Positions 28,915-49,532 of a DNA stretch of 56,593 nucleotides are shown here, in pieces. The first letter of the stretch is position 1. Each line of letters begins with the position of its first letter. The stretch lies in assembly GCA_944321985.1 (NCBI GenBank), contig CALUNK010000136.1, positions 1 through 56,593 of the forward strand, written 5' to 3'. The notes below the pieces were generated by a model. That model did not search any database and was not told the DNA's origin. It saw only the letters and a program-made list of their open reading frames with translations. The stretch comes from Candidatus Methanomethylophilaceae archaeon. Lineage in GTDB: Archaea; Thermoplasmatota; Thermoplasmata; Methanomassiliicoccales; Methanomethylophilaceae. A program made the translations under genes and the position numbers.

Positions 28915-29877
28915 ATGAAAAAGCAGTTAGTCGTGCTGGCGATGATTCTGGTTCTGACAGGAGTCTCCGTGACGGCACTATGCGTTTATCAGGACGATGT
29001 AAGGTCGGACGTCCATGTGCTGACTCCGGGGTATCTGGAAAGCGACGATTATGACGCTATGGTAAGACTGGGCGATTCGAACTATTGGAACGTATCCCTG
29101 GAGTCTAGGGTGGACGCGTCATGCTGGACCGATTCAGGCATGGTCTGTTTGATAAGCGTGACCGTCAGCGTCAACCAGGACTACGTCTTTGAGACGTTCG
29201 GGCTCCGTTACAGCTATGTTTCTGACGGCGACTCGCTCATTCCCTCCGACGCCGCCTCGGACCAGGACATGGGGCCAGACGTGTCTCGCCAATATGTCGA
29301 TCCTGTGACGGGCGACACGCTGTTGTTCCGTGAATCCGGTGGTATGCTGGAGAGCATAAGGTTCAATGGAACCACCGTCGTGGGCGGTGAGGGTGATTTC
29401 GAGTATGCGGAATTCGACCTGGTGGTGACCTACGAGCCACAGCTGAAGTATGTGAGCAAACTCATCCTTCGCGATGCAGGCGATAAGACCGAGATGGCGG
29501 TCCAGGGGACGGAGAACGGGATTCCGGTCTCGGGGAGCCTGTTGATCTCGCCGATGCCTGCGGTCGTGAACTCCGCAGCCTATGTCTCCGAAAGACACAT
29601 TCTGTCACTGGAACTGTCCGGAACCCTGATTCCCCAGGAGCTGCTGTCCGTGGTTATGCCTGCCAACGGAGGGACTATCAATCAGATGCTATGCACAACA
29701 TCGTATCTGAGACAGGACAGTACATACATAGTTCCTGAAATCGAGTACGATTATGGGGTTGACGAGTACGGAAAGACAATGTTCACCATGTCTGGAACTG
29801 TAATGATGTATCATCTCGACGGAGACTGCTACGCGATCTCCAAAGAAACGGTCGAGTTCGACTACGAGGTGGTGTGA
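28915..29877 (+). CDS. Membrane-anchored exported protein of ABC cassette A
   Basis: This 320-residue protein has an N-terminal export helix (KKQLVVLAMILVLTGVSVTA) and an otherwise extracellular beta-rich body with motifs such as SYVSDGDSLIPSDAASDQD, YVDPVTGDTLLF and EYAEFDLVVTYEP. A paralog of the same layout at 49777-50733 shares 'SYM/V-x-D-x-x-x-LVP-x-DA', 'DP-x-TG-x-x-L-x-F' and the C-terminal 'ETVEF-x-YEV'. Its TGA at 29877 directly abuts the ATG of the ATPase. It probably works outside the membrane with that ABC transporter, either as a substrate-handling partner or as an immunity/sensor protein. This is inference. Confidence 0.7.
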   Translation: MKKQLVVLAMILVLTGVSVTALCVYQDDVRSDVHVLTPGYLESDDYDAMVRLGDSNYWNVSLESRVDASCWTDSGMVCLISVTVSVNQDYVFETFGLRYSYVSDGDSLIPSDAASDQDMGPDVSRQYVDPVTGDTLLFRESGGMLESIRFNGTTVVGGEGDFEYAEFDLVVTYEPQLKYVSKLILRDAGDKTEMAVQGTENGIPVSGSLLISPMPAVVNSAAYVSERHILSLELSGTLIPQELLSVVMPANGGTINQMLCTTSYLRQDSTYIVPEIEYDYGVDEYGKTMFTMSGTVMMYHLDGDCYAISKETVEFDYEVV

Positions 29878-30801
29878 ATGGGCGGTACGCTCGTCGTGGA
29901 GGACGTCATCAAGACGTTCAGGGGCTTCCGCGCGGTGGACGAGGTCTCGTTCACCGTGTCGGAGGGGAGCTTCACCGCCCTCCTCGGTCCTAACGGATCC
30001 GGAAAGAGCACCACGCTGAAGATGTGCACCAACCTGTTCCAGCCGGATTCCGGCAGGATCCTGGTCAACGGGATCGACGTCCGCGAGGACACCGTCGGGG
30101 CCATGTCCGGCGTGGGGTGCGTCATAGAGACGCCCGAGATCTATCCTGACGTGACCGGCAGGAGGTACCTGGAGTATCTCGCCGAGGTGTCCGGGATGAC
30201 GTCGGAGTCCGCCGCGTCCGAGGCCGAGAGAGTCCTCGGCATCGTCGGCATGTCGGACCGCGCCGACGGGAAGGTGAAGGGATACTCCAAGGGCATGAGG
30301 CAGAGGGTGGTCCTGGCACAGTCGCTGCTGGGCGACCCGTCCCTTCTGATACTGGACGAGCCCACGTCCGGCCTGGACCCGCAGGGGTCCGCGGAGTTCG
30401 GGAGGATCCTCACGGACCTGAACTCGCGGGGGAAGACCATACTGATGAGCTCCCACATGCTTCATGAGGTCGAGGGGCTCTGTGACAGCGCCGTGATAAT
30501 CAACCGCGGGAGGGTCGCCAGGCAGGGAAGCATCGAGGAGATCGTCAGCAGGTCCACAATCACCGTATCCACGGTAGGGGACGTGAGCCGTGACATTATC
30601 TCGATGGTTTCCGATATGCCTGCGGTCACCGAGGCCTCCGCCATCGACGGTGGATTGACCGTCAGGCTGGACGGCGGTCCGGAGAGGCAGGCGGACCTCG
30701 TGAAGGCGCTTGTTTCGATGGGCGTGCGCGTGTACGCGGTCAGAAAGGAGGATCCCCTGGAGGAGGCCTTCATGGACATAACCGGGGGTGCCGGCTCATG
30801 A
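29878..30801 (+). CDS. ABC transporter ATP-binding protein (cassette A)
   Basis: A complete ATPase subunit of 307 residues. Walker A is ALLGPNGSGKSTTLKMCTNL (about residues 34-53). A Q-loop region follows with GVGCVIETPEIYPDVTG. The signature is YSKGMRQRVVLAQSLLGDP, Walker B is LLILDEPTSGLDPQG, and the H-loop is MSSHMLHEVEG. The C-terminal 80 residues are the 'ISRSTITV...VRKEDPLEEAFM' extension of the CcmA/NatA-type exporters. ATG directly follows the preceding stop, and its own stop overlaps the permease ATG by 4 bases, so the three genes form one unit. Confidence 0.95.
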   Translation: MGGTLVVEDVIKTFRGFRAVDEVSFTVSEGSFTALLGPNGSGKSTTLKMCTNLFQPDSGRILVNGIDVREDTVGAMSGVGCVIETPEIYPDVTGRRYLEYLAEVSGMTSESAASEAERVLGIVGMSDRADGKVKGYSKGMRQRVVLAQSLLGDPSLLILDEPTSGLDPQGSAEFGRILTDLNSRGKTILMSSHMLHEVEGLCDSAVIINRGRVARQGSIEEIVSRSTITVSTVGDVSRDIISMVSDMPAVTEASAIDGGLTVRLDGGPERQADLVKALVSMGVRVYAVRKEDPLEEAFMDITGGAGS

Positions 30802-31598
30802 ACGCCGCATACGCGCTCAGGCAGGTGTCCGTGATCACGCGGTTCGAGGCCCGCAGGAAGGTCCTGAGCTGGAGGATGCTGTTCCCGATGCTCTGCGCGG
30901 CGGTCATATGCGTGCTGGCGTACACCACAGGGAGCGGCGCCGCATCGGGGATGGACGGCACGGAGGCGTCCAACGCGTTCCTGAGGCCGTTCATCGCCTC
31001 CGCGTCGCTGGTCCTGGCGATAAGCGCCACCGTGATGTCCACCGAGTCCCTCTCGGAGGAGTTCGAGCGCAGGTCGGGATACATAACGTTCACCAAGCCC
31101 CTCGGCAGGAACGTGCTGTTCGCCGGGAAGTTCCTGTCGGGGTTCCTGCCGTCCGTCGCCGTTCTGGCGTTCTACTACGCGGTGACGTACGCCCTGTGCC
31201 TAGCGGTCGTCGGCGGCGTACCCGGCTCGGCGTTGACCTCGGTGCCCCTTGCGCTGCTGTACCTCGCGGCGGTCACGGGCGTGTGCATGCTGTTCAGCGC
31301 CCTGGCGCCCAGGGGCAGCATGGCCATGATGGTGGCCTTCCTGCTGCTCGTGGTGCTGCAGATCTTCATGCAGAACGTGGGGTTCGACAGCGAGCCGTGG
31401 TACAGCCTGGGGTACGAGGCGGGGATAATCGCCGACTACCCCATAGGCAACCAGACGGTGTTCAGAATTGACGCGTCAGGGAACCTTTACACATCGGACT
31501 ATGTCCCGGACATCAGGATGGCCTGCGCGGTGATGTCCGTATACGCCATACTGTCGACGGCGTTCGCGGCGTTCGTGTTCAGGTACAGGAACATGTGA
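30798..31598 (+). CDS. ABC-2 type permease (cassette A)
   Basis: This 266-residue integral membrane protein has about six hydrophobic segments, including FPMLCAAVICVLAYTTGS, PFIASASLVLAISATVMS, SVAVLAFYYAVTYALCLAVV, SALTSVPLALLYLAAVTGVC and MVAFLLLVVLQIFMQNVG. The motif ESLSEEFERRSGYITFTKPL with the linked 'R-x-x-LFAGKFLSGFLPS' is the cytoplasmic coupling loop of NatB/ABC-2 permeases. ATGA overlap with the ATPase ensures cotranslation. The cargo is unknown. A RiPP-like cluster begins 14 bases downstream, so the pair may export its product. Confidence 0.88.
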   Translation: MNAAYALRQVSVITRFEARRKVLSWRMLFPMLCAAVICVLAYTTGSGAASGMDGTEASNAFLRPFIASASLVLAISATVMSTESLSEEFERRSGYITFTKPLGRNVLFAGKFLSGFLPSVAVLAFYYAVTYALCLAVVGGVPGSALTSVPLALLYLAAVTGVCMLFSALAPRGSMAMMVAFLLLVVLQIFMQNVGFDSEPWYSLGYEAGIIADYPIGNQTVFRIDASGNLYTSDYVPDIRMACAVMSVYAILSTAFAAFVFRYRNM

Positions 31599-31612: not shown

Positions 31613-32626
31613 ATGGTTGAAAACAACAATAATGGGTATAAAGACGAAGTCGTACCGTTTTCATTATCCATTGACGTAACTCATAGATGCAATTTAAGAT
31701 GTAGGCATTGTTATAATGAAAGTGGTTCTGGATCCCGTAAAGAGTTGACAGATGATCAATTATTGAGAATTACAAAACAAATAGCGAATTTACCTGTAGA
31801 ATCTGTTTGTCTTAGTGGAGGAGAACCGCTCATACGTAGCAACATTCTCATCTCTTTAGTAAAGGAATTGAAGGATTCTGGAGTAGGAACAATCAGTATG
31901 ACTTCCAACGGAATGATGATTTCTAAGGAAATTGTTTACAATCTGGCTAAAGCAGGTATGAACAATGTACAAGTAAGTGTGGATGGATTGCGTGATGCAC
32001 ACGATTGGCTTCGCAACAAGTCTGGATCATTTGATAAAGTAATGGAATCAATAAAAGTCATCATCGAAGCTGGTTTAGAGGTTAGTGTTGCATGTATTCC
32101 AAATAAGAAAAACTTCAACGATTTTGAGGATTTAATTTGCAATCTTGATTCTATGGGAGTGTCGATGTTTCGTGTCCAACCAGTTATGATTTTAGGACGT
32201 GCTTGTCAACTCAAAACAGCTTTACTATCTCAGTCCGATTATATCCGCTTATCGTTGATGCTTTCCAGAATGGCAGTCAATTCTAGAATGAAAATCGAAT
32301 GGGGTGATCCTGCTCAGCATCTTTTATATTTAGCCTCTGGCAATCAAGCGAAAATGTTGTTTATTGATGATTGTGGAAATATTTCTCTCTCTCCATTCGT
32401 GCCTATTCACTTTGGAAATGTAATGAAAAAGACTTTGAAAGAATATGTTGAAGCAGGACTTTTAAATGTATGTACGTCGAATGATGAACTTCGTCAATTT
32501 TTTGGTTTATTCGGAAGTTCCATATTGATGTCTCCAGACGAACTTTCTGAACAGACTGTTAGTCACAGACTTCATTGTTCTAATTTTTCAAACATGTATT
32601 TCGTTAATCTTAATCGGTATGTCTAA
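31613..32626 (+). CDS. Radical SAM enzyme of a RiPP-like cluster
   Basis: Residues 26-33 read C-N-L-R-C-R-H-C, the CX3CX2C motif that binds the [4Fe-4S] cluster. SLSGGEPLIRSN (about residues 66-78) gives the GGEP SAM-binding motif, and SVDGLRDAHDWLR follows. The C-terminal part has a single DDCGNISLSPFVPIHFGNV strand and few Cys, so it lacks a full SPASM set of clusters. The base composition falls sharply (AT-rich) relative to the ABC genes. It starts 14 bases after the permease stop and overlaps the next gene by 8 bases. A PqqD-like RRE and a candidate precursor peptide downstream make a peptide-modifying role likely. Confidence 0.85.
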   Translation: MVENNNNGYKDEVVPFSLSIDVTHRCNLRCRHCYNESGSGSRKELTDDQLLRITKQIANLPVESVCLSGGEPLIRSNILISLVKELKDSGVGTISMTSNGMMISKEIVYNLAKAGMNNVQVSVDGLRDAHDWLRNKSGSFDKVMESIKVIIEAGLEVSVACIPNKKNFNDFEDLICNLDSMGVSMFRVQPVMILGRACQLKTALLSQSDYIRLSLMLSRMAVNSRMKIEWGDPAQHLLYLASGNQAKMLFIDDCGNISLSPFVPIHFGNVMKKTLKEYVEAGLLNVCTSNDELRQFFGLFGSSILMSPDELSEQTVSHRLHCSNFSNMYFVNLNRYV

Positions 32627-33080
32627 CCATTTGGAGTTAATTCATATGCTGAGAGTTTTGGGACCAGATGATGCCGAATCAATTTTGGCAACTGTTGGAG
32701 ATGTGAATATGGATTCTGGCAAGGACGTGGCTGTCTTTCACAACATTATGATGTTGAGAGAGTATATTCTGTTCGGTAAACTGATTATTGTGGGGGAGGA
32801 ATCGAAAAATAATAGGTTCAATATGCTTATTGTTTCAATTCCTAATATTACCTCAACACTTCAAGCTCTTACAATATTGTATTGTATTGGCGATTGTAAA
32901 TTCGTAGAAAGATCATGCTATCTGATCAAGTCACAATTTGGCGATATGTTCAGCAAGATTAGTGTCCATTTCTATACGGATAATATTCCAGAATGGATGA
33001 GTCCGATATTTAAACAAGAGATAACACATTATTGTACGCCGAGTTTATTTGTTTATTCATTCATATTTAACAAAGGGTAA
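32619..33080 (+). CDS. Hypothetical protein of the RiPP-like cluster
   Basis: The 153-residue product begins MSNHLELIHMLRVLGPDDAE and overlaps the radical SAM gene by 8 bases (ATGTCTAA). It has a mixed helix-strand pattern: MLREYILFGKLIIVGEE and NMLIVSIPNITSTLQALTIL are followed by VERSCYLIKSQFGDMF. There is no signal peptide. I do not recognise the family. The overlap suggests a stable partner of the enzyme, perhaps a substrate-binding or scaffold protein. Confidence 0.6.
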   Translation: MSNHLELIHMLRVLGPDDAESILATVGDVNMDSGKDVAVFHNIMMLREYILFGKLIIVGEESKNNRFNMLIVSIPNITSTLQALTILYCIGDCKFVERSCYLIKSQFGDMFSKISVHFYTDNIPEWMSPIFKQEITHYCTPSLFVYSFIFNKG

Positions 33081-33177
33081 CTTCCGGAACAAACAATTCA
33101 TCCCCTAATTCTTAATCATTAGATTCTGTAATAGTTAGTTCATGTTTTTTGAACACTTTAGTTAGCAGGTGAAGTTA

Positions 33178-34755
33178 ATGAAGATAACTTATGTTGAACG
33201 TAATGGTAAGCAGTATGCGTATTCTTGCACCTCCACCCGTGTTCCAGGCAAGAAGAATCCCATTTCTAAGATGACATATCTTGGTACATACGATCCGAAA
33301 ACAGGACTTATATCTCCAAAGAAAATCAGACCGGAGGCGTTAGAAGATTCTGTACATGATGGAAGTTTTACGTCATTAGATTATGGTAGTGTAATATTGT
33401 GTTATAGTATTGCTGAAAAATTAGGAGTTGTCGATGCAATTAAAACCACTTTCGGTGAGGATTTTGGAACCATCTTGGCATTGTCTATTGCTTATGCGGC
33501 AAATCCCTCCTCCAGCAGCGATCCTTTCGACGCAGTTCAGGGTTTTTATTTCCTGCCTTTCACAAATACCGTGTCTGTCTCTAAAACGGAAATGCGTAGA
33601 ATTAGTAAGATTATTGGAGAACGTATGTGGAAATACTATCTGGAACTAGGTTGTAAGAAAAAATCATTCCTTTTTGAATGTACGGATTTTAACAGAGAAT
33701 TGGAAAGCACGAGTAATGTAGAAGGATTGAATCTAAACTATTACCCCACATTTTTTATTGTAAACAGCGAGGGGCGTTTTATCATCAACGGATCCGCTAC
33801 TGGTTTGCAAGATCCAGATAGTGCTATAGGGTATGTCTTGGATAGAGGTAAAGAGTTATCAGAACGTATATCTGTAGTTCTTCCATGGGACTCCCGGAGA
33901 AAGTCCATTATCAAATTAATTATGAACAATCGTGACATGGTCGTTCCAATAAATCCATCATTGCCAGTTTTTAGATCAATGTATAGTGCGGATGCATTCG
34001 AGGACTCATATGGTATTCAAGAATGTATTTTTGACGGTCATATGTATCAGGTCATATCGTCAGTAGTGGGCCTTATATCATCGGGGGGAGGTTGGATTTT
34101 GATTGATAAAAAAGATTCGAGATTCGACGATAGAAATTACACGCTTAATGTTTACATATGGCGTGATGAAACTGAGGGCCTAAATGTTCTAGACACTGTG
34201 AGAAAGTTTTTCAAATTAAGATGTGAGGAGATGAAGAACATGACTCAGAGGCAAATCGAAGATGTTATCAATCCGAACTCATGGGAGTCGCAGTTCGTTG
34301 ATTTTAGTAAAGATGCATATGGTGAATATAATTGCTCAATAAAAACAGAACAAACCAGATATATTAGTTCAAACGCAGGATTGCATGCTTTCATAACGAC
34401 GACTTGTAGTTGGTACGAGTGTATGTCTGCAATCAAGCTATATAATAGACTTAATAAGTATATGAGATCCCTAACTGACCTATACAGCGGTCATTCGAGG
34501 TATAAGATTTCTTTTGATTCAAGATATATGCAGTATTTTATTCGTTGTATTTCTATAGATATCAGAATGGAGATCGAACGTGTGTTGGATATCAAAGAAT
34601 CTGAAATGACAGCAGATGACGTGTTTAGGATCGCTTCATCATATCGTACTGTTATTTCTGGAGAAACCACATATATTAGTTCTATGAGCCGTAAAACAAA
34701 GATGTTATTTGATTTGTTTGATGTATACACCGTCTCGACCTTGTCGAATGATTAA
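33178..34755 (+). CDS. IS1634/IS4-family transposase-like protein, probably degenerate
   Basis: ATG 33178 has AGGTGA just upstream (GTG 33169 is an alternative). The N-terminus (MKITYVERNGKQYAYSCTST and KMTYLGTYDPKTG) and the LDYGSVILCYSIAEKLGVVD segment match the start of IS1634-type transposases. The middle FLFECTDFN and VVLPWDSRRKSIIKLI stand where the first two catalytic Asp residues are expected, and the C-terminal helix ERVLDIKESEMTADDVFRIA is typical. I cannot find a convincing third catalytic acidic motif (Y-x-x-R-x-x-IE). No terminal inverted repeats are seen. It sits inside the RiPP-like cluster in the same direction, so it may be an inserted remnant or a recruited protein. Confidence 0.5.
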   Translation: MKITYVERNGKQYAYSCTSTRVPGKKNPISKMTYLGTYDPKTGLISPKKIRPEALEDSVHDGSFTSLDYGSVILCYSIAEKLGVVDAIKTTFGEDFGTILALSIAYAANPSSSSDPFDAVQGFYFLPFTNTVSVSKTEMRRISKIIGERMWKYYLELGCKKKSFLFECTDFNRELESTSNVEGLNLNYYPTFFIVNSEGRFIINGSATGLQDPDSAIGYVLDRGKELSERISVVLPWDSRRKSIIKLIMNNRDMVVPINPSLPVFRSMYSADAFEDSYGIQECIFDGHMYQVISSVVGLISSGGGWILIDKKDSRFDDRNYTLNVYIWRDETEGLNVLDTVRKFFKLRCEEMKNMTQRQIEDVINPNSWESQFVDFSKDAYGEYNCSIKTEQTRYISSNAGLHAFITTTCSWYECMSAIKLYNRLNKYMRSLTDLYSGHSRYKISFDSRYMQYFIRCISIDIRMEIERVLDIKESEMTADDVFRIASSYRTVISGETTYISSMSRKTKMLFDLFDVYTVSTLSND

Positions 34756-34843
34756 ATCAACAGAAGCGTATTCGTAATCGAGGGCTATCTAGATTTGTGG
34801 TGATATAACAATTTATATTTACTTTAGTTTGTTTTAATATTCT

Positions 34844-35050
34844 ATGGTTGAAGAGTATATCGCTCCAAGGATAGAAACAGAGTCGTCATCTTCTAACTTC
34901 TCAGTCATAATCGCACCGTTAATTGTGGGAAGTACAACCAATAATTTACGGCAAAAACAAGAGCTTGCTAATGATTATTCTTTATTAAAGTTTACAACAG
35001 AAGTTTTGTCGGTGACCAAATGTCAGAATGCTCATCACACAAAATATTGA
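34844..35050 (+). CDS. Candidate RiPP precursor peptide
   Basis: A 68-residue peptide begins MVEEYIAPRIETESSSSNFS. The Y-x-A-P-x-I stretch at residues 5-10 resembles the YxxP-type leader motif bound by PqqD-like RRE domains in lasso-peptide and related precursors. It is followed by a Ser-rich hinge, a hydrophobic VIIAPLIVGSTTNN segment, and a C-terminus ending in C-Q-N-A-H-H-T-K-Y. The gene directly precedes and overlaps by 31 bases the RRE gene, with a TATA-like sequence (TTTATATTTA) about 30 bases upstream. The boundary between leader and core is unknown, and so is the modification. Confidence 0.55.
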   Translation: MVEEYIAPRIETESSSSNFSVIIAPLIVGSTTNNLRQKQELANDYSLLKFTTEVLSVTKCQNAHHTKY

Positions 35051-35346
35051 AAAATGTGCTTTATGGTTGTGTTGCATCTTTACCGGAAAACATAAGCGGT
35101 TGGTACGAAGATGGTGAACTAGTAGTTGTTACGACGATCTTCAATAAAGATGATAAATTTAGTTTTAATAAAACAGCCATTTTCATTTATGAATTACTTG
35201 CCGGGAGAGAGCATGTGGAGGTGGATGTTTTAATTACTGAAGTTGCCACTCATTATCACTTGTCAAATCTAAAATTAATACGTGAAGATGTTTACACATA
35301 TATTCGTGAATTATGGTCTTTGGCTTTGATAAAGTGGGTTGGATAG
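35020..35346 (+). CDS. PqqD-like RRE protein (RiPP recognition element), followed by in-frame amber
   Basis: ATG 35020 has GGTGA five bases upstream. The 108-residue product fits the PqqD fold: a strand LVVVTTIFNKDDKFS, then NKTAIFIYELLAGREHVEVD, TEVATHYHLSNLK and REDVYTYIRELWSLALIKWV, the family pattern 'N-x-T-A-x-x-I-x-E-L-L-x-G...V-x-x-D-V-x-x-F-x-x-x-L-x-x-x-G-L-I-x-W'. The last codon is TAG at 35344. The same frame stays open to 35443 and, past a second TAG, to 35799, so read-through would yield a 259-residue RRE-GNAT protein. The RRE would bind the leader of the upstream precursor candidate. Confidence 0.7.
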   Translation: MSECSSHKILKNVLYGCVASLPENISGWYEDGELVVVTTIFNKDDKFSFNKTAIFIYELLAGREHVEVDVLITEVATHYHLSNLKLIREDVYTYIRELWSLALIKWVG

Positions 35347-35364
35347 AATCCATTATGCGACATT

Positions 35365-35799
35365 TTGCTCGAATCAGACATATTTACGATACGTCGTGCC
35401 ACTCACGATGATGCAAATGCTATTACAATATTTTTATCAAATTAGGATGTATGCACAGATCCATCTGTACAGATTGGTTTGACCGAATCTGAGATTATTA
35501 AATATTCTAGAGATGATACAATAAATATATTTCTGATGGAATGTAATAGAACATTAGCTGCATTGGTCATCATAAACAAATCAAAATATGGGGAGGTTTT
35601 ATTGTCCGGGGGATCATGTACAAACGTTAAATTAATAATGGATTGTCTTAGGAGGAGTGGATTTTATATTGCTTTTATAACCAGAGTCGCATTGGATGAT
35701 TGGTGTACAAGTAAATATTATAGGGAGGTTGGAATGGATTTTTGTGGCACTCTTGAAAAAGAGTTAAAAAGCGGAGATGTAAATATTTATATTTATTGA
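35365..35799 (+). CDS. GNAT-like acetyltransferase domain with an in-frame amber codon
   Basis: In the same frame as the RRE gene, residues read ESDIFTIRRATHDDANAITI, the first strand and helix of GNAT acetyltransferases. Then TAG at 35443-35445 is followed by DVCTDPSVQIGLTESEIIKY, LMECNRTLAALVIINKSKYG and later DDWCTSKYYREVGMDF, resembling the 'Y-x-x-x-GF' end of a GNAT domain. The only standard start near the beginning is TTG 35365. The usual coenzyme-A loop (Q-x-x-G-x-G) is not seen, so activity is uncertain. Its amber codon interrupts a region that continues naturally on both sides, which suggests pyrrolysine or a recent nonsense mutation. Confidence 0.5.
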
Positions 35800-37091: not shown

Positions 37092-38420
37092 GTGGGACAG
37101 AAAACCACAGTTATATCTGTAGAAAGTAATACGATGCCAGTGCTGAGAAGCCTGTATGTAAGGAATGCTACAGGTCACATAAGAATCTCGTGTATGTCAA
37201 GTGCAGCATCATGCAGGCCGTCAGATGATGAAAATCGTGTGGCTGCAGCTAAATATAATGCCCGATCCTATTTTGAAACCATGGTTCGTTGCACTGTGAT
37301 TCTGGGAGCAGGTGCTGTGTATGAGGCAAGTGGCGAGATGAACGATGGAAAATCTGTGAGTACAGAATCCATAACCTGTTCCCTTTATACTCAGTATGGC
37401 GATCCAATAGAATCAGAAGAATGTATCACATTGAGAAGGATTGTGGAATCCAACGGGGGTCCAGGCAACTTCAATTTTGAGGACGTCTACGAATTGCTCA
37501 TGGAGATCAGGGATTATGTCATGGGCATCTCTGAAGATCAAGATGGTTCCATGAGAAAAACCATGGAAACCTGTGGATTGAAGAAAGATGCCACTGTCGG
37601 TTATATAAATAGTCTGATTGACCGCCTCCTTCTAAGAGTCTTGCTTTCCATAACACCATATGATGGGAAGGAACCTCCTGCATGGTTCTCTGGTTTCTTC
37701 TCCAGATTGGAATCATTGAACGATGACGCGATTTCGTTTGATTTTTGCGTGCTCAATTATGACACCTGGGTGGAAAAATCTCTCAATCGGTATAATGACG
37801 GGTTCGTCAGAGCTAAACTTGATTCTGGAGATCCTGATGAATATTCCATTTTCAAGAAATCAATGATCGCATCTTCTGATGATTCTAATAGGCTGTGTCA
37901 TCCTCATGGATGTGTGAATTACGGCGGACCTCTTAATGGAAAACCCCATGGAGATGCGGAAATTTGCCTGTGGAATCATTGTATTTCGGTATCAAGGAAT
38001 GGAATGCAGTATTCGGAAGGGGATAGTAGCAAACCTGTGCTGTCACCGATAGTAACCGGAAAAAGGAAAAAGAGGAACTTCTACTACGAACCTTTCAAAA
38101 CGTATTTAGATTTGATAGAGGGCCCAATGGCATCCAATGAGATCGTATTGATCATTGGATATGGTTTCGGAGATCCACACATCAATGAGATCATAAGAAA
38201 ATACAAGAAAGGTTCTGGAAAACACCTAATCGTAATTTCGCCGTTCTCAGAAAAGACCAAGGAAGATATCAGAACTGTGTGCGAATATGATGTCGAACAA
38301 AAAGAGGGAGCGTGGATGTCGGATGATGCTTATGCAGTATGGTTTATGTCCGGATTTAAAGAGATGACTATGAACGATGATGTCATAGAAACTATAAGGG
38401 ATATGGCAAAGCAACATTGA
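37092..38420 (+). CDS. SIR2-like NAD-binding protein
   Basis: Key SIR2-type motifs appear in order: CTVILGAGAVYEASG (the glycine-rich NAD site), DFCVLNYDTWVEKSL (the 'T/L-NYD-x-x-E' motif), RLCHPHGCVNYGG (the active-site His region) and EIVLIIGYGFGDPHINEII, the 'GYS/GF-x-D-x-x-I' end. Such SIR2-like proteins lack the histone deacetylase zinc module and act as NAD-consuming defense effectors (Thoeris ThsA, DSR, SIR2-HerA). GTG 37092 is the earliest start; ATG 37281, seven codons before the glycine-rich motif, is a strong alternative. No ThsB or HerA partner is directly adjacent; a TIR gene lies 1 kb downstream. Confidence 0.7.
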   Translation: MGQKTTVISVESNTMPVLRSLYVRNATGHIRISCMSSAASCRPSDDENRVAAAKYNARSYFETMVRCTVILGAGAVYEASGEMNDGKSVSTESITCSLYTQYGDPIESEECITLRRIVESNGGPGNFNFEDVYELLMEIRDYVMGISEDQDGSMRKTMETCGLKKDATVGYINSLIDRLLLRVLLSITPYDGKEPPAWFSGFFSRLESLNDDAISFDFCVLNYDTWVEKSLNRYNDGFVRAKLDSGDPDEYSIFKKSMIASSDDSNRLCHPHGCVNYGGPLNGKPHGDAEICLWNHCISVSRNGMQYSEGDSSKPVLSPIVTGKRKKRNFYYEPFKTYLDLIEGPMASNEIVLIIGYGFGDPHINEIIRKYKKGSGKHLIVISPFSEKTKEDIRTVCEYDVEQKEGAWMSDDAYAVWFMSGFKEMTMNDDVIETIRDMAKQH

Positions 38421-38731
38421 ATCCGGATACTGTTGGATTTAATCTTCATTAAATGAGAATTAATGGAAAAATAGTCTGCATGATCTGTTATCTCGAATAC
38501 AAGAATAAGCTGGACAAAAATGAATTATGAAAAATTCAATTTTGGACTATAGTTTTGCTTTTATTGAAGACTTTCCTAAATTATCTGTACGATTCGTAAG
38601 CATGCAATACGTTGAATATGACTCGTTCCCGGAATCAGCCAGATACCGTATCGATAAGCATTTGACATAGCAAATACAAACAAAATGCATGATTGCAAGA
38701 ATATAAGAAGGGATCTGTCGGCTCGGTTTGA
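38421..38731. other. Stretch without a supported gene
   Basis: AT-rich sequence between two convergent genes. No frame with protein character, hairpin or RNA gene is seen. Confidence 0.4.
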
Positions 38732-39196
38732 TTACAGGTATCGCCTCCTGAAAGCTCTCATGAATCCGAAGTCGGTGGGTCCGTTCATCTTGGGCGGCCA
38801 TCCATTATGGATCGCCGATTGATCGGAATTCTTCAGGAAGATGTTCGCATCGGGTGCGTGGGAACCTATTCTGGCTATGCCCTTCATGCAGGCGGACTTG
38901 TCCGCATACGCCTGGGACACGGCTGTGATCTCACCGTTCGAAGCCTTGAGCCTGAACCTCGGCTTGCCGCCTACATCGAGGTAAACCTCGTACTTTGGAT
39001 GCCTTAGGACCTCGCAGCCTTCCACCGTCTGGTCCTCGACCGGTGCGGCGCAGTTTGTGCGGACGCTCTCGATTCCGATCTTCGCGTTGGCGACGGATGC
39101 GTACGTCTGGGAGCTGCTGATCACGCGGTTGTTGTTGGCGATTAGGTTGAACATGTACCTTCCGTCGGACGTTTGCTTGACTGAGAACCTTCCCAT
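38732..39196 (-). CDS. DUF1508 (YegP-like) protein with altered C-terminus
   Basis: ATG 39196 has GGTGA seven bases upstream. Two DUF1508 repeats are visible: GRFSVKQTSDGRYMFNLIAN followed by NNRVISSSQTYASVANAKIG, and YEVYLDVGGKPRFRLKASNG followed by TAVSQAYADKSACMKGIARI. The family forms small beta proteins of unknown function, often induced by stress. A close paralog lies at 49152-49532 on the other strand. After the shared APDA, this copy has a longer unrelated tail (NIFLKNSDQSAIHNGW...), so its end may be shifted by an indel or rearrangement. Confidence 0.78.
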   Translation of the reverse strand: MGRFSVKQTSDGRYMFNLIANNNRVISSSQTYASVANAKIGIESVRTNCAAPVEDQTVEGCEVLRHPKYEVYLDVGGKPRFRLKASNGEITAVSQAYADKSACMKGIARIGSHAPDANIFLKNSDQSAIHNGWPPKMNGPTDFGFMRAFRRRYL

Positions 39197-39393
39197 TTGC
39201 ATTCACCGCGTGTGTATTGAGCCATGATTTAAACTTTGAATTTTCATGACATTTCAGTACAAATGATGTAGGTCTGTTGGAATCCGAAATTAAATTAATC
39301 AAATCATCGTCCAAAAGTGATTGAAGTCCCTCATTGATTGTATGTCTTCCAAACAATCAGTAATTTCAAAAACCCGCATGAATATGATCCTGT

Positions 39394-40029
39394 GTGTCGC
39401 ATAACTGTTTCATATCGTTCAAAAAAGAAGATGAGTACTATTGCAAGAAGATTGCTGAACTATTAAAAATCGAATCGATGTCCGGAAAATATCTGGATGA
39501 ATGGATCGACTCCGAGGATCTTGATTATGTCATGCAGAGGATCAGAAAAGAATACATGAAGGGATCCAGCGTGACTCTTTATCTCATTGGTAAACACTCG
39601 TCTGAAAATGAAGGACTGGATGAATTCGGTCGTTCAAAACAGAGTTTCATGATCAGAGAACTGCAAGCCACATTGTTCGATAGAAAAGGAAACAGTTTGA
39701 GCGGTCTCATCGGAATTGTGTTACCTGAGATGGAATCCGAGATATTCGGCGATTCATACCGCTGTGAGACGTGCGGAAAGGAGATCAGCATTGTTCGCAT
39801 CAATGATGAAACCGTTTTAAGGGAGTTCTCACAGAACTATTTGTTGGAGAAAGGTGATTGCGATCATTATCCTGAAGATGGCAGATTCTGCGTTTTGGTA
39901 AAATATTCTGATTTTATTTACAACCCCCAAAAGTATATAGATCAGGCATTCGACAAAACGAAATCCAAAATTGCCGAGAAGGTTCATTACAGGGACATCT
40001 CACACAAGGGTCTGAAATCATACAAGTGA
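39394..40029 (+). CDS. thsB: TIR-domain protein, ThsB-like (DUF1863)
   Basis: The 211-residue protein starts with GTG 39394, reading (M)SHNCFISFKKEDEYYCKKI. This is the 'F-I-S-x-K-x-D' start of MTH538/ThsB-type TIR domains. A loop with DEWIDSEDLDYVMQRIRKEY, a strand GSSVTLYLIGKHSSEN, the region KQSFMIRELQATLFD containing the Glu of the 'W-x-x-E-I' motif, and LSGLIGIVLPEM follow, as in the family. TIR proteins of Thoeris sense infection and make an NAD-derived signal. The next gene overlaps by 4 bases (GTGA) and encodes a membrane-anchored macro domain, the expected signal receptor in type II Thoeris. A cysteine pair insertion (CETCGKE) may form a zinc knuckle. Confidence 0.78.
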   Translation: MSHNCFISFKKEDEYYCKKIAELLKIESMSGKYLDEWIDSEDLDYVMQRIRKEYMKGSSVTLYLIGKHSSENEGLDEFGRSKQSFMIRELQATLFDRKGNSLSGLIGIVLPEMESEIFGDSYRCETCGKEISIVRINDETVLREFSQNYLLEKGDCDHYPEDGRFCVLVKYSDFIYNPQKYIDQAFDKTKSKIAEKVHYRDISHKGLKSYK

Positions 40030-40778
40030 TTGGAATGTACCTGGTGTTTCGTAGTCTGTCCGTCATATCGTTAGCACTGGCAATGCTTACTGCAGCACTA
40101 CCCAGATATTCCATTTATTTTGTTGTCGCAATCATCGTTATCATTCTGTTACTATGTCTTGTTGAATGGTTTGTTCCAAAGACGATAAAGATCAACGGTG
40201 AAAAGACAAATATAGTTCTGGAATACGGCGATCTGCTGAAAAAGACGGATGGAATCATAGTCATACCTGTAGATAGGAACTACAATACGACCGTAGACGA
40301 CATCATCATATCCGGTAATACTCTGCATGGAAAATTCATCAACAATATTGTCAGAAACAAGGATGCATTTGTCAGTGAACTCTCATCGGCACTGGAATCT
40401 GAACCCGATGAGAAGGGAGCGTTCGAAACACAACAGCCAGGACACGTTGTTCCCGTAACAATACAGGGTTGCACCTATTATCTGTTGGCTTTATCGAAAC
40501 TTGATCAGAACAACAAAGCTCATTGCACGCCGGAAGAATACGCAAAAGCCATTGAAACCCTAATGGGATACATAGATACGAACTTCAATGGTAGGAAAAT
40601 ATACATGCCATTGATTGGTGGCGGGTTGTCTGACGTTTTTGGTTCGATAAATGATACAGAGTCTCTTCAGATTCTGGTTTCTTTGATAAAATTGAGTCAA
40701 CATGCCAGAATAGATGAGATCCATATCGTCATCTACAAACACTCGAAACATCACGCCTTGATTCAAATGGTGAATTGA
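40026..40778 (+). CDS. Membrane-anchored macro-domain effector (type II Thoeris-like)
   Basis: Two membrane helices (LSVISLALAMLTAALPR and YFVVAIIVIILLLCLVEWFV) precede a macro-like domain. The latter has KTNIVLEYGDLLKKTDGIIV, then NTLHGKFINNIVRNKDAFV, GHVVPVTIQGCTYYLLAL and PLIGGGLSDVFGSIND with the G-G-G loop of ADP-ribose binding. In type II Thoeris a two-helix macro protein binds the TIR-made ADPR derivative and disrupts the membrane. GTG 40026 overlaps the TIR stop (GTGA); ATG 40035 is also possible. The pair is cotranscribed. The assignment is by architecture and motif; the archaeal occurrence is notable. Confidence 0.78.
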   Translation: MIGMYLVFRSLSVISLALAMLTAALPRYSIYFVVAIIVIILLLCLVEWFVPKTIKINGEKTNIVLEYGDLLKKTDGIIVIPVDRNYNTTVDDIIISGNTLHGKFINNIVRNKDAFVSELSSALESEPDEKGAFETQQPGHVVPVTIQGCTYYLLALSKLDQNNKAHCTPEEYAKAIETLMGYIDTNFNGRKIYMPLIGGGLSDVFGSINDTESLQILVSLIKLSQHARIDEIHIVIYKHSKHHALIQMVN

Positions 40779-41046
40779 ACAGATACAAAATCTTTCACTT
40801 AACAATTGCTGTATCGCTCTTTGAATTCTTTCTTATTTTACTAATGGGAAAAACGATAATACTGAAAAATACGTAATCCGATAAACCTTTTAAAATTACA
40901 AACACAACTGATTACCTTTTTTTTGCCTCCGGACAACCCCTCGTGCACTGTCGCCTGCGACATATCGCCCTTTCCGATTCCATCGTAAAGTGACGTAAGC
41001 CGCAGGCGCCCGGCCGTTCCCTCGGGGTTTCCCCGGGAGGCGGCAA

Positions 41047-41370
41047 ATGCCTGTGAAGAAGACCACGAAGAAAGATAATGAGACGAAGAAGGAGAACATC
41101 AACAGACATCCGGACGTCATCAGACTGAAGAACGAGCATATCAGGGAACTGAACAGATTCCTGGCGGAGAACAGATTCTACGCCTTCGAAGGTGGAGAGA
41201 AGTTCGATGAAGGGATGAGGAAACTCGGACTTGAACCGACGGACACAGACAAGATCGTCGATGTCGGCGGCGGAGCGATGAGACGTGACAAGGTCCCGGA
41301 ACTGAAGGCCCTGATCGAGAAACAGGGGAAGGAGCTGCGGGAGATGAAGAAGGCCCTCAGGGGATCCTGA
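41047..41370 (+). CDS. Hypothetical small charged protein
   Basis: ATG 41047 follows GGGAGGCGGCAA, a good ribosome site. The 107-residue protein is Lys/Glu-rich and helical: MPVKKTTKKDNETKKENINR, then LKNEHIRELNRFLAENRFYA and KALIEKQGKELREMKKALRG. This suggests a coiled segment. Base composition is GC-rich unlike the island genes around it. A hairpin terminator follows at once. No family is recognised. Confidence 0.62.
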   Translation: MPVKKTTKKDNETKKENINRHPDVIRLKNEHIRELNRFLAENRFYAFEGGEKFDEGMRKLGLEPTDTDKIVDVGGGAMRRDKVPELKALIEKQGKELREMKKALRGS

Positions 41371-41375
41371 GGGCA

Positions 41376-41397
41376 AGGGGCGGAACGCCCCTCTTTT
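41376..41397 (+). terminator. Hairpin terminator
   Basis: A seven-base-pair stem, AGGGGCG-GAA-CGCCCCT (41376-41392), is followed by CTTTT, five bases after the stop of the small charged protein gene. Confidence 0.72.
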
Positions 41398-41483
41398 ACA
41401 AAGTGTCCTGGTACAACTCGAAGAAATCTCAGCCAATGGTCGATGGCAATATAATCACATAATGTATCAGTGATTTGAACCTT

Positions 41484-43346
41484 ATGCAGATACAATCGAA
41501 TCGTGATGAGCTCGATAGCATCATCTTCGGTACAGGAGATTCGGTCAGGACGATGGATTCCGATATACCTTTGGAGGACAGACTAAAGATCCTCCGCAGG
41601 GAGTTCCGCGTGGAATGCGAGACAAATGTCCTTCGTATCAGTCCCGTCTGCTCCCAGACGACGGTAACGTTGGTATTGGAAAACCACACGGCCATCGTTC
41701 AGGACCGCCATATCATCGGATACGTGTTTGACTCCGCCATTAGTCCTGGGCCTGGGGTAGAACTTGCCTTCTGCCGCTTCGATGACGTAATGGCCGATGC
41801 CCGCTTTGACGGGGACCTGATGATGATAGGCTGCGTGTTTGGGGGAAATGTCCGTATGTGTCACAGCACCATACACGGCGATCTGTCCCTGGACTGCTCG
41901 ATGTTCGAGAACGATGCAATCTTCAACAGGATGGTGTGTGACGGTACCGCTTCCTTCGACCACTGCACATTCGTGAAGAAGGCCGGGTTCAACAGCTGCG
42001 ATTTCAAAGGAAAGGCATCCTTCAGATCCGTTGGGTTCCACGGAGAGGCGGATTTTGCTGATGCCACGTTCTCCAACAAAGCACTGTTCGACCGCGTTAT
42101 CATCGACAGTGATGATACGGAGACAGACTACACCGTATTCACCGATGCTGTTTCCTTCTCCGCCGCAAGATTCGACCATTTCGCGAACTTCCATGGGACA
42201 TCGTTCCTAAAATCGGCCAATTTCAATGGCACCATCTTCAACAGTAAGACATTCTTCGAGGGATTGGGTCTTTCCAATAGAGCATGTTACGTCGGAATGT
42301 CGTTCAAAAACACCCATTTCGGCATATACACCTCGATCTCCGACGTCAGCATAGAGGGCGAATTCAGATTCGAGTCTGTAACCTGTGACGGCGAACTCTT
42401 TGTCTCCGGCACAAGGTTTCTCAAAAGTCCCATACTATCCGACCTAATTGTCAACGGGTACACCACGTTCCAGCGCCTAGAGTTTGGAGACGATGCGAAG
42501 AAGATGTCCGTGATCCGTTCGACCTTCCATGGTGATTTGGATGTTGATTTCCTCGTCAGGGACATGGATAAACAGAATCTCAGGACCCTCCTCCTGTCCA
42601 CTTGTTGGATCACAGGACATCTACACATCGCCGGTGCCGTCAATCTCATCGATTTACAGGAGACGGTCATCGACGGGGCTACAAGGCTGGATATCCAGAG
42701 GAAGGATGGAGAGGATGCGCCCGATCTATGGCTGGATCTGAGATATGCGTCGTTCGGTTCCACCGTCCAATTCAGATGGGTGTGTCTGCATGACAACAAC
42801 GGACATCTGGAAGGTAACGTCCTGTCGGAGATCGGGAAGGAGGAGCTCTTCGAAGCCGTTCGCATCCTGATGGATAAGCCAGGAGGTCCGAACAACAAGC
42901 AGATGGCTGCACAGATGCTCATGCTCCGCAACGCATTCGACAGGATCGGACGCTTCGACGAGGCGGACTTCTTCCTTCGGAAGTACAACAACTATCAGTG
43001 CAGGACTGACACCGGCTCGAAGGGTGCTGATAGTCCCTCACGCTTTCTCAAGAGAGCCGGCATGGAAATCATGAAGGTGTTCGGTCAGTACGGAACGAGC
43101 ATCGCACTCATTGCGTTATGGATGGTTGTCATCCCAACCATTGTGGGGGTGATCATGACAGTCCTTGGGAGCCAACCTTTGGATGCCTTCAAGGACTCGT
43201 TCGTGGCCTTCATCACCATGAGCCTCGGAGTCACCCCAGACGGGCTGAGCGATGTCCAGCACATCCTGCTGATTGCCGAGGGATTCCTAGGCGTCTTCCT
43301 GATGTCCTTCCTGGTGACATCGATCGCCAGGAAGCTGTTCAGATGA
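41484..43346 (+). CDS. Pentapeptide-repeat protein fused to a two-helix ion-channel-like domain
   Basis: From ATG 41484 the first 380 residues contain pentapeptide-type repeats, with recurring Phe-x-x-Ala/Cys-x-Phe: DHCTFVKKAGFNSCDFKGKA, SFRSVGFHGEADFADATFSN, SFSAARFDHFANFHGTSFLK. These build a right-handed beta helix. The last 100 residues have two membrane helices (GTSIALIALWMVVIPTIVGV and HILLIAEGFLGVFLMSFLVT) around a pore-like FVAFITMSLGVTPDG loop, as in two-helix K-channel-type domains with an altered filter. The C-terminus ends in SIARKLFR. Possible roles are a gated pore in cell suicide or stress sensing. A 41-codon frame overlaps the stop (ATGA). Confidence 0.75.
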   Translation: MQIQSNRDELDSIIFGTGDSVRTMDSDIPLEDRLKILRREFRVECETNVLRISPVCSQTTVTLVLENHTAIVQDRHIIGYVFDSAISPGPGVELAFCRFDDVMADARFDGDLMMIGCVFGGNVRMCHSTIHGDLSLDCSMFENDAIFNRMVCDGTASFDHCTFVKKAGFNSCDFKGKASFRSVGFHGEADFADATFSNKALFDRVIIDSDDTETDYTVFTDAVSFSAARFDHFANFHGTSFLKSANFNGTIFNSKTFFEGLGLSNRACYVGMSFKNTHFGIYTSISDVSIEGEFRFESVTCDGELFVSGTRFLKSPILSDLIVNGYTTFQRLEFGDDAKKMSVIRSTFHGDLDVDFLVRDMDKQNLRTLLLSTCWITGHLHIAGAVNLIDLQETVIDGATRLDIQRKDGEDAPDLWLDLRYASFGSTVQFRWVCLHDNNGHLEGNVLSEIGKEELFEAVRILMDKPGGPNNKQMAAQMLMLRNAFDRIGRFDEADFFLRKYNNYQCRTDTGSKGADSPSRFLKRAGMEIMKVFGQYGTSIALIALWMVVIPTIVGVIMTVLGSQPLDAFKDSFVAFITMSLGVTPDGLSDVQHILLIAEGFLGVFLMSFLVTSIARKLFR

Positions 43347-43468
43347 ACCATCTGTTCATCGAATCGGAGGGGCCCTATGAGGGCACGACCGCGGAGTACA
43401 ACGGACACGGCTCGGTGGACAAAGAGGTCGTGGATGACATCGCGGGATTCATCCTGAACCGATCGTGA
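43343..43468 (+). CDS. Tiny protein overlapping the channel-like gene
   Basis: ATG 43343 overlaps the preceding TGA as ATGA, and the 41-residue frame ends just before a terminator, so it looks like a cotranscribed cistron. It reads MNHLFIESEGPYEGTTAEYN, then VDKEVVDDIAGFILN. Family unknown. Confidence 0.5.
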   Translation: MNHLFIESEGPYEGTTAEYNGHGSVDKEVVDDIAGFILNRS

Positions 43469-43471
43469 AAC

Positions 43472-43493
43472 GCCGACCCCTTCCGGGGTCGGC
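43472..43493 (+). terminator. Hairpin terminator
   Basis: GCCGACCCC-TTCC-GGGGTCGGC is a perfect nine-base-pair stem (43472-43493), followed by ATCTTCCCTT. It ends the pentapeptide/tiny-protein unit four bases after its last stop codon. Confidence 0.75.
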
Positions 43494-43659
43494 ATCTTCC
43501 CTTATCATTTCCGAACGGATTTGGGGACGACGTGAACGATGACCGGAACTGTCGGTATATCCATGTTGTCCTCAATGGATGATTCGAACAGGCCTGGTTC
43601 CATCCGGATTCCTGCCATGTCAGCACCGGTCCGTCCGCGTGTCCTCAGAACTGACATAA

Positions 43660-44175
43660 ATGGGAATGGAAAAGTATGACCAGGAACGAAAGTTGATTAA
43701 TCGAAATTGCCTTGCGATCCCTATGGATTCGGAGATAACCTTCAGGAGCGCCTACGGCCCCGTCGTCTACATTTCGATGGTTCTGTTGCTCCTGATCTTC
43801 GCCGTTCTCATATTCGTCCTCCCGAGCATCGGCTTGGTTTTGGTGGTACTCCTCATCATCCTGGAGACCTTCGTCGCACTGACCCCGTTCATGCTGAGGT
43901 ACACCTTCGACGACGAGAAGGTCACGGTGTCCAACCCGTTGGCAACTCCGGAACCCCCGGCGTACTACGACAGGATCTGGAAGGTCGAGGATTCAAGGAA
44001 GGAGTACGCCTCGAACATGCACGGCGCATCCCCCGACTCCATCAGGATATGGTACGACCGCGGAACCGGGCACTACATCTGCATCTCGCCCAGCGACAAG
44101 AGGCGCGCGATGGACATACTCAGGGAACGGTGTCCGGATGCGGAATTCATACCCAGTGATGATGCCTGTTCCTGA
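43660..44175 (+). CDS. Membrane protein with bacterial PH-like domain (bPH_6 type)
   Basis: The 171-residue protein has two adjacent hydrophobic helices (GPVVYISMVLLLLIFAVLIF and SIGLVLVVLLIILETFVALT), then a C-terminal PH-like domain: LRYTFDDEKVTVSNP, AYYDRIWKVEDSRKEYASNM, DSIRIWYDRGTGHYICISPS and a final helix AMDILRERCPDAEF. The 'S-x-D-x-I-x-I-x-Y...ISP-x-D-x-x-x-F/M' pattern is that of YvcQ/bPH_6 proteins. The domain probably faces the cytoplasm. A start at ATG 43666 is equally possible. Function unknown. Confidence 0.68.
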   Translation: MGMEKYDQERKLINRNCLAIPMDSEITFRSAYGPVVYISMVLLLLIFAVLIFVLPSIGLVLVVLLIILETFVALTPFMLRYTFDDEKVTVSNPLATPEPPAYYDRIWKVEDSRKEYASNMHGASPDSIRIWYDRGTGHYICISPSDKRRAMDILRERCPDAEFIPSDDACS

Positions 44176-44196
44176 TAATCGCCGGAGATGGGATCC

Positions 44197-44331
44197 ATGG
44201 AAGACGGCACGATGGTCGCTGTTGCGATGGTGTTCGGCCCCGCCCTCATCCTGATCGGATTGGTCGCCACACTGATCCTCGTCTGGCTTCTCTGGTACAT
44301 CAACGTACGCTGTCGCAATACACCACACTGA
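44197..44331 (+). CDS. Tiny single-helix membrane protein
   Basis: ATG 44197 lies nine bases after GGAG; an in-frame ATG lies at 44188. The 44 residues include a long hydrophobic helix (MVAVAMVFGPALILIGLVAT then LILVWLLWYI) and a short basic tail. It is 21 bases after the PH-like gene and probably shares its mRNA. Confidence 0.5.
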   Translation: MEDGTMVAVAMVFGPALILIGLVATLILVWLLWYINVRCRNTPH

Positions 44332-44491
44332 AAAACGACATTTGGATAGTTTAATATCCACGATATTCGAACGCACCGGCCAATTCGATCGTCTAGGCAC
44401 CATTTTCCGTTCTGCTGGAACGAAATCCTGAAGCGTTTTGTGTTTCATGTTTTTAGGAAATAATGACTCGCGAATCGGGTTAATCGTCGTT

Positions 44492-45700
44492 TCATTTCAA
44501 CGACTCTATGACGTTATGCAATCTGTCAATCAGATCGTCATATGTGATGATGTCTACAATATGAGAATACTGTCTTCTCAGGAGTTCGATGGAATCCAAT
44601 ATCTCATCATCCTCTGTATTACTACGGCCCATTATGATGATTCCGCGAGGGTTTAATACCTTCAGTTTTAGCGAGTCTGGTAATGGTTTACCGGATTCGG
44701 AAAAATGCTTTTTTACATTATTAACAGCCGCTGTGCTGTTTTTATTAAGACCGTATAAATAGTTCTCAACCTGGGCAACAACATTACCCAGATATCTGCT
44801 AGGAACGTAATTGTTGCGATCTCTGACCAGATGTTCGTTGTATGTCGCCAACAGATCGACCTTCGGGTCCTTTATTTCGATGATGTCGATGTATCCGGAA
44901 CTGTTGACGACAACGAAATCCACACGTTTCCCCTTGCCGTACATCTCAGTGAGTTTGGATTCACGCGTAACGTATGCATACTGCGGATAAAGGAGCTTTA
45001 CGATTTCCATGATCCGCTCCTGCCAATCGGTTTCCTTGTAGCTCTCGACATTATTCAGCATCTCCCTCATCTCCTCATAAAGAAAAGTATACTTCTGCAG
45101 ATCGAAGGTACGTATGTCCGGGAGATCATCCATCTTCTTTCCTTTCCTGAGTTTCTCCACATACCTGTCATAAGCGTAACGGTAATCCTTTGGCAATTCC
45201 AACTCGGCACTCAGTATCTCTGCGGCCCTCAATCTTTTGTAATGCCTGTATTCTGTACTATTAGGATACTTCCCCATAGCTGATTTCAATAACTCTGGTG
45301 AAAGATCTCCATCCTCATTTCCGATTGTAATATCTCTCTTCAATACTTCGAAGACGACGTCCATCGCGTTAGGCATATAGTAGTCTTTGAAGTATGACGA
45401 ATCGAGTTCAGACATCTCCCTTATAGAGAGGGTGTATTTTTCCGACAGGACAGGTGGCCTGATAACATACAACCCATTCTCGTAATCTCCGATTTTGAAG
45501 TGAACGTGCTCTTCTATCGGGTCTTCTAAAAATCCCTTCCCCGCATCTATGTTGGATTGTGTTATCTCGAATATCCTGCATAATTTGATGGAAGAGTTCC
45601 ATTTCAACAGTTCTTTAATCCAGTCTGTACCATCGCGAGGAGTGTAGTCTACATAAACACCCGTTTCATCATATTCTAGTTCGAAAACCACAGTGGTCAT
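44492..45700 (-). CDS. sduA: Shedu-type defense nuclease (DUF4263)
   Basis: This 402-residue protein has the Shedu C-terminal nuclease: DWQERIMEIVKLLYPQYAYV, then KRVDFVVVNSSGYIDIIEIK with the D...E-x-K catalytic set, DLLATYNEHLVRDRNNYVPS and RYLGNVVAQVENYLYGL. All are conserved in DUF4263 proteins. The N-terminal 200 residues are the sensing part (LSIREMSELDSSYFKDYYMP and others). Shedu is a single-gene anti-phage system whose oligomer nicks DNA. The ATG at 45700 stands directly on an AGGAGG, so a GTG nine bases later may be the true start. It follows a TIR gene on the same strand, 73 bases away, and may be a separate unit. Confidence 0.85.
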   Translation of the reverse strand: MTTVVFELEYDETGVYVDYTPRDGTDWIKELLKWNSSIKLCRIFEITQSNIDAGKGFLEDPIEEHVHFKIGDYENGLYVIRPPVLSEKYTLSIREMSELDSSYFKDYYMPNAMDVVFEVLKRDITIGNEDGDLSPELLKSAMGKYPNSTEYRHYKRLRAAEILSAELELPKDYRYAYDRYVEKLRKGKKMDDLPDIRTFDLQKYTFLYEEMREMLNNVESYKETDWQERIMEIVKLLYPQYAYVTRESKLTEMYGKGKRVDFVVVNSSGYIDIIEIKDPKVDLLATYNEHLVRDRNNYVPSRYLGNVVAQVENYLYGLNKNSTAAVNNVKKHFSESGKPLPDSLKLKVLNPRGIIIMGRSNTEDDEILDSIELLRRQYSHIVDIITYDDLIDRLHNVIESLK

Positions 45701-49151: not shown

Positions 49152-49532
49152 ATGGGAAAGTTCGCAATCAAGCCGACTAATGACGGGAAGTACATGTTCA
49201 ACCTGATCGCCAACAACAACCAGGTCATATGCACATCCCAGACGTACACATCAGTAGCCAACTGCAAGGTGGGTGCGGAGAGCGTCCGTAAGAACTGCGC
49301 CGTCGATGTCGAGGATCAGACCGTGGAGGGTTACGAGGTCCTCAAGAACCCCAAGTACGAGATGTTCTTCGATGTTGGAGGGAAGTACAGGTTCAGGCTC
49401 AAGGCGTCGAACGGCGAGATCATTGCCGCCTCCCAGGCATATGCAGACAAGGCCTCCTGCATGAAGGGGATCAGGAGCATAGGGAGCCACGCACCAGATG
49501 CGGAGATCGTGATGATAGAGCCCGAGGAGTGA
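49152..49532 (+). CDS. DUF1508 (YegP-like) protein
   Basis: ATG 49152 follows GAGGGATG with normal spacing, and a TATA-like TATTTAAAG lies about 40-45 bases upstream. The 126 residues hold two DUF1508 repeats: GKFAIKPTNDGKYMFNLIAN, then NNQVICTSQTYTSVANCKVG, and YEMFFDVGGKYRFRLKASNG, then IAASQAYADKASCMKGIRSI. It ends normally at VMIEPEE. The paralog at 38732-39196 is similar up to APDA. Confidence 0.88.
   Translation: MGKFAIKPTNDGKYMFNLIANNNQVICTSQTYTSVANCKVGAESVRKNCAVDVEDQTVEGYEVLKNPKYEMFFDVGGKYRFRLKASNGEIIAASQAYADKASCMKGIRSIGSHAPDAEIVMIEPEE

Follow-up and report, generated by a model that had tools for sequence, protein, structure and literature searches.

A radical SAM gene cluster in the genome of a Candidatus Methanomethylophilaceae archaeon, a gut-type methanogen, is probably a decayed and horizontally acquired copy of a radical-SAM RiPP cluster whose intact relatives may work as proposed below. 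The cluster was studied in a 56,593-nt stretch of DNA (CALUNK010000136.1, assembly GCA_944321985.1), hereafter the window, which is an entire contig of an incomplete draft genome (141 contigs, 86% complete). The cluster family is apparently undescribed: a literature search found no paper on such a cluster or peptide family, although novelty is not thereby proven.

Gene content of the window locus

All genes of the cluster lie on the plus strand. The first, rSAM1 (31613–32626), encodes a radical SAM enzyme of 337 aa (PF04055, E 8e-30) and starts 14 nt after the stop of an ABC permease (31598); both the enzyme and the spacing had been correctly recognized in an earlier, sequence-only reading of this DNA. 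An overlapping protein reported there is also real, being encoded by the 153-aa ORF2 (32619–33080), which overlaps rSAM1 by 8 nt. Both window genes are open over their full length. The other listed genes exist as well, but that account of the gene order lacked an open transposase-like ORF of 528 codons (33169–34755), which we class as IS1634-like and which lies between ORF2 and the precursor ORF. The precursor remnant (34844–35050, 68 aa) carries a YxxP leader motif, Y-I-A-P, at residues 5–8 (34856–34867). The PqqD-like RRE is present as first described, with a PF05402 match above the cut-off (E 1.8e-5 over the first 108 aa, 35020–35346). The RRE and a "GNAT" domain had been taken for separate items; both belong to one gene of 259 codons (35020–35799), whose one frame covers the PqqD-like RRE and a C-terminal domain and contains TAG twice, at codon 109 (35344–35346) and codon 142 (35443–35445). 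The GC content is ~35% in the cluster region and near 60% in much of the window.

The precursor ORF in the window

The 68-aa ORF is very likely a true relative of the family precursors, since it ranked first among the 484 small ORFs of the window (E 7e-4; next 1.8) against an HMM made from archaeal precursors with the window ORF left out. It keeps the leader and the first core residues (IAPLIVG), and the hydrophobic core is absent. The GRAVY value beyond the leader was -0.19 for the window ORF, versus +0.6 to +1.75 for nine relatives. The 68-residue YxxP peptide of the earlier reading is therefore real as an ORF with a Y-I-A-P leader, but its core half is unlike the family. We also considered a core displaced by frameshift, and no hydrophobic core was present in any of the three forward frames between 34800 and 35850; the window thus holds the leader of a precursor but no intact precursor. 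A search for a second precursor elsewhere in the source genome gave no match at E 0.1.

Related clusters in archaea and bacteria

Nine precursors in eight other genomes adjoin rSAM1 and the PqqD fusion gene. These precursors are 60–77 residues long and have a YxxP leader, in which the Tyr and Pro are invariant in all precursors, followed by a V/A/I/G-rich hydrophobic core. Motifs of the YxxP type are known to be recognized by RREs (PMC12710340). Across genomes, a precursor with a conserved leader and a variable core thus lies by a tailoring enzyme, and the idea of a RiPP cluster, first raised for the window alone, holds at the family level. None of the precursors reached a curated NCBIfam cut-off.

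Within the taxonomic order of the window organism, clusters with the precursor, the PqqD fusion gene and rSAM1 occur at five loci in four other genomes (G042, G048, G113, and two loci in G057), to which a contig-end fragment in a fifth (G062; partial rSAM1, ORF2, and rSAM2) can be added. Bacterial clusters were found in Collinsella aerofaciens (NZ_OY725717), in two Lachnospiraceae MAGs, and in G484, whose family is that of the L012 genome. Among 147 genomes of the order, 6 clearly contain the rSAM1 family, counting that of the window, and none of the other searched genomes of the same genus has it. A plasmid search gave Collinsella matches only. Among viral contigs, all radical SAM matches were distant (23–27% identity over longer stretches and at best 35% over a short one).

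Homologues of ORF2 were found in G057, G062, and G113, and L012 has one by position and weak similarity; ORF2 itself matched no Pfam or NCBIfam model. A relationship between ORF2 and the C-terminal domain of the fusion protein was unsupported (hhalign probability 2.7%). A second radical SAM enzyme (rSAM2) is encoded 3' of ORF2 in G057, G062, and L012. A homologous ABC half-transporter (~540 aa) lies alongside the clusters of G057, G048, G113, and Collinsella, with a weaker counterpart in L012. Small membrane proteins accompany most clusters: SdpI-type proteins in G113 and L013, with a homologue in G484, and DUF3784-type proteins in G042, with homologues in both G057 loci and a sub-threshold match in Collinsella. 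On the window contig, neither the half-transporter nor a DUF3784 or SdpI protein was found. A relative of rSAM1 also occurs in a larger cluster, L094 (G305:C67:30000-45000), in which no precursor was recognized and which contains AMP-ligase-like and methyltransferase-like proteins, a carrier-protein-like ORF, an ABC transporter, and a PqqD-like protein of 270 aa.

The transposase-like ORF and neighbouring genes

The first ~125 residues of the transposase-like ORF match many proteins of the order at ~40% identity, and the whole aligns from end to end, at 19%, with a DDE_Tnp_1 protein of G057. The DDE region has diverged, with FECTDFN in the window ORF replacing FDITSFS of the G057 protein, and the ORF may therefore be catalytically dead. 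No convincing terminal inverted repeats flank it. In the window, this ORF occupies the slot of rSAM2 of G057, G062, and L012. The window ORF and two other long, open IS1634-like ORFs (L014:6073-7596 and 1676-3232) have apparently lost the first catalytic Asp; one such ORF immediately follows ORF2 in the window and likewise in G113.

Upstream of rSAM1, the ABC-2 ATPase–permease pair (29854–31598) has a second copy at 50710–52454, with 75% DNA identity (1764 alignment columns), and the two copies align as far as the stop codon of the permease. The second copy, 21 kb away, is not followed by RiPP genes. Because the duplicate comes without RiPP genes, we rejected the ABC-2 cassette as the peptide exporter; it looks like a neighbour rather than a component of the cluster, with an accidental adjacency. 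The attachment to an ABC exporter that had been claimed is thus not supported, and the conserved, probable exporter of the family is a different protein, the half-transporter. With a gene for a secreted protein, the cassette spans 28915–31598 and 49777–52454.

Defence-like genes lie beside the cluster (37092–45700), including a SIR2-like ORF (37092–38420), a TIR-like ThsB (39394–40029) with a macro-domain ThsA (40026–40778), and Shedu SduA on the minus strand (44492–45700). The window also contains an inverted repeat of ~360 nt with 78% identity (38846–39202 and 49146–49502), one arm of which is inside an ORF (38732–39202).

The PqqD fusion gene and amber codons in the genome

The frame 35020–35799 carries TAG at 35344 and 35443 and has zero frameshifts, and the fusion gene is uninterrupted in all nine relatives. 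Against a profile of these nine, with the window left out, the whole window frame scored 102.7 bits; the sequence past the second TAG alone scored 36.7 bits, compared with a maximum of 9.0 over 200 shuffles. For PF05402 (cut-off 23.4 bits), the stretch up to the first TAG (35020–35343) scored 25.4 bits, and the read-through protein was marginal at 23.1 bits. The C-terminal domain matched no GNAT family profile, and its AlphaFold model, built from a three-row alignment, had a pLDDT of 42 and was too poor for fold comparison. The C-terminal part has an identity of 0.30 to that of G042, as does the G057 copy, and this equal divergence would fit either readthrough or recent loss.

Two mtmB genes of the source genome contain an in-frame TAG, and PylS is encoded as well; TAG terminates just 19 of 303 long ORFs (457 kb of the 1.78-Mb genome). 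This avoidance of TAG is similar to that reported for the order (PMC3941956). The pyrrolysine genes agree with an assignment of the organism to Methanomassiliicoccales. Given PylS, the TAG-bearing mtmB genes, and the rarity of TAG stops, readthrough of both TAGs of the fusion gene as pyrrolysine is possible, and since the genome decodes TAG as pyrrolysine, the two codons need not inactivate the gene. Long free in-frame extensions followed 9 TAG, 4 TAA, and 40 TGA stops, counts that allow no firm conclusion because the following gene alone could account for such an extension.

TAG-containing frames also occur outside the cluster. A 423-codon frame on the minus strand of the window (2049–3317) has TAG at codon 121 and no family match, and in the source genome a DUF5677 match (residues 66–226 of L032:936-1832) spans an in-frame TAG at codon 111. 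These two frames are possible non-methyltransferase pyrrolysine genes or amber pseudogenes.

Decay versus function of the window copy

Decay of the cluster would explain why the leader survives while the core is lost and why the fusion gene has two ambers; it would also agree with a transposase-like ORF that splits the operon and with an exporter and membrane partners not found on the contig. The lost core and missing partners, together with the low GC content and the patchy distribution of the family in the order, point to horizontal acquisition followed by decay. Such decay would be at most recent or partial, as neither rSAM1 nor ORF2 is truncated or interrupted and the fusion gene is free of frameshifts.

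It is unlikely that the cluster is functional, with the TAGs read as pyrrolysine to give a 259-residue RRE fusion, the 68-residue ORF serving as a working precursor with a less hydrophobic, newly diverged core, and another exporter in use. The pyrrolysine genes and the rarity of TAG stops fit this reading, as do the single frame open through both TAGs, a C-terminal divergence from G042 no greater than that of another relative, and the accessory gene elsewhere in the genome whose DUF5677 domain extends across an in-frame TAG. However, the core is lost, a transposase-like ORF stands within the operon, the exporter and membrane partners are missing from the contig, and neither TAG position corresponds to a conserved lysine in the relatives. 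The coincidence of two TAGs is not strong either, since two random nonsense changes would both give TAG with a chance of ~11%. That pyrrolysine is present in a RiPP recognition protein, with both ambers translated and the cluster still making a diverged peptide, is improbable.

Errors of assembly or base calling in this metagenome-assembled genome, with the real gene intact, are a still more improbable explanation: the draft is fragmented and incomplete, but such errors would not typically produce two separate substitutions to one and the same stop codon, a 528-codon insert, and loss of the core, and the flanking genes are clean.

The radical SAM enzyme and its likeness to known systems

In a 12-member alignment of the rSAM1 family, the CxxxCxxC motif is formed by C26, C30, and C33, and the only other invariant Cys is C66. 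Position 68 is Cys in 11 of the 12 members and Ser in the remaining one, the window protein. No later Cys is conserved in this alignment, including any of the SPASM/twitch type that would hold an auxiliary cluster. SkfB was the best solved-structure match to rSAM1, both by sequence (E 5e-33) and by fold (E 1.4e-14, TM 0.64), and among solved structures the enzyme is thus nearest to a RiPP maturase, in keeping with the first RiPP reading. In a scan of 12 members, the window rSAM1 reached none of the curated NCBIfam cut-offs for radical SAM maturases; its best score was 117.7 bits against a cut-off of 395 (TIGR04053), and a nif11-type model gave just 104 of 725 bits. It is highly improbable that rSAM1 belongs to a non-RiPP family of heme or cofactor biosynthesis with the peptide incidental, because its generic matches to NirJ, AhbD, and MoaA models are all far under the curated cut-offs (e.g. 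112 vs 515 bits), archaea and bacteria alike have the precursor and PqqD fusion beside it, and SkfB is its best solved match.

SkfB is the peptide maturase of a small killing peptide, the sporulation killing factor sactipeptide, and rSAM1 would resemble it in this respect. SkfB differs in bearing an RRE fused at its N terminus and a cluster in a twitch domain (PMC8326336). In the present family, the RRE is in a separate fusion protein and the auxiliary-cluster Cys are not conserved. The conserved core Cys of sactipeptides and ranthipeptides is also lacking, five of the nine precursor cores being Cys-free, and the maturase does not have their SPASM/twitch Cys. Thioether chemistry is therefore unlikely as the common reaction.

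Proteusin epimerases of the PoyD/OspD type are reported to contain a sole radical SAM cluster and to require a critical Cys (PMC8326336). These two features and aliphatic cores are the points of likeness to this family, in which C66 is invariant. Proteusin epimerases differ by a C-terminal, fused RRE, and the leader in the present family is short and carries YxxP. We know of no PqqD fusion of the present type in the epipeptide system. The radical SAM epimerase of that system with a structure, YydG/EpeE, matched rSAM1 at E 1e-9 by sequence and ranked 46th by fold; unlike rSAM1, EpeE has a second [4Fe-4S] cluster (PMC8326336). Discrete RREs of the PqqD fold with YxxP-type motifs are known from PqqD/PqqE and lasso systems (PMC12710340), but PqqE carries auxiliary clusters and its precursors differ too. 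In the loci read, none of the ORFs was recognized as a lasso cyclase (Asn-synthetase-like) or leader peptidase. The SDP system of Bacillus subtilis resembles this family in its hydrophobic peptide and in the SdpI-family proteins found with the G113 and L013 clusters; no homology between SDP and the family precursors was established. The SDP toxin is not known to be made by a radical SAM enzyme.

Proposed mechanism in intact clusters

We infer the chemistry, export, and immunity of the intact relatives from gene content. Judging by motif and domain, the PqqD-like domain of the fusion protein would bind the YxxP leader of the precursor. Linkage places rSAM1, with its single conserved [4Fe-4S] site, beside the V/A/I/G-rich core that it would modify. 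Perhaps the reaction is Calpha epimerisation, which we take as the first hypothesis, ahead of carbon-carbon crosslinking, in view of the aliphatic core, the lack of a conserved core Cys, and the invariant extra C66 in rSAM1; the proteusin epimerases, with a radical SAM cluster only, a critical Cys, and aliphatic cores, suggest the same. The dedicated ABC half-transporter, by its linkage, would export the product, and the SdpI/DUF3784-type membrane proteins may provide self-immunity. SdpI is the immunity protein against the SDP toxin in B. subtilis, and on this ground the product of the intact relatives, a very hydrophobic and presumably modified peptide, is probably a membrane-active bacteriocin.

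The useful outcome of this analysis is the intact family, the window copy being only modestly interesting. A further question from the window copy is how common tolerated ambers are among horizontally acquired accessory genes of pyrrolysine-using methanogens. If our guess from the anatomy of the clusters is true, archaea and gut bacteria would have in common a class of radical-SAM bacteriocins that comes with a precursor, a recognition protein, an exporter, and membrane partners of its own; Collinsella aerofaciens, a gut bacterium that can be cultured, makes the family accessible to tests.
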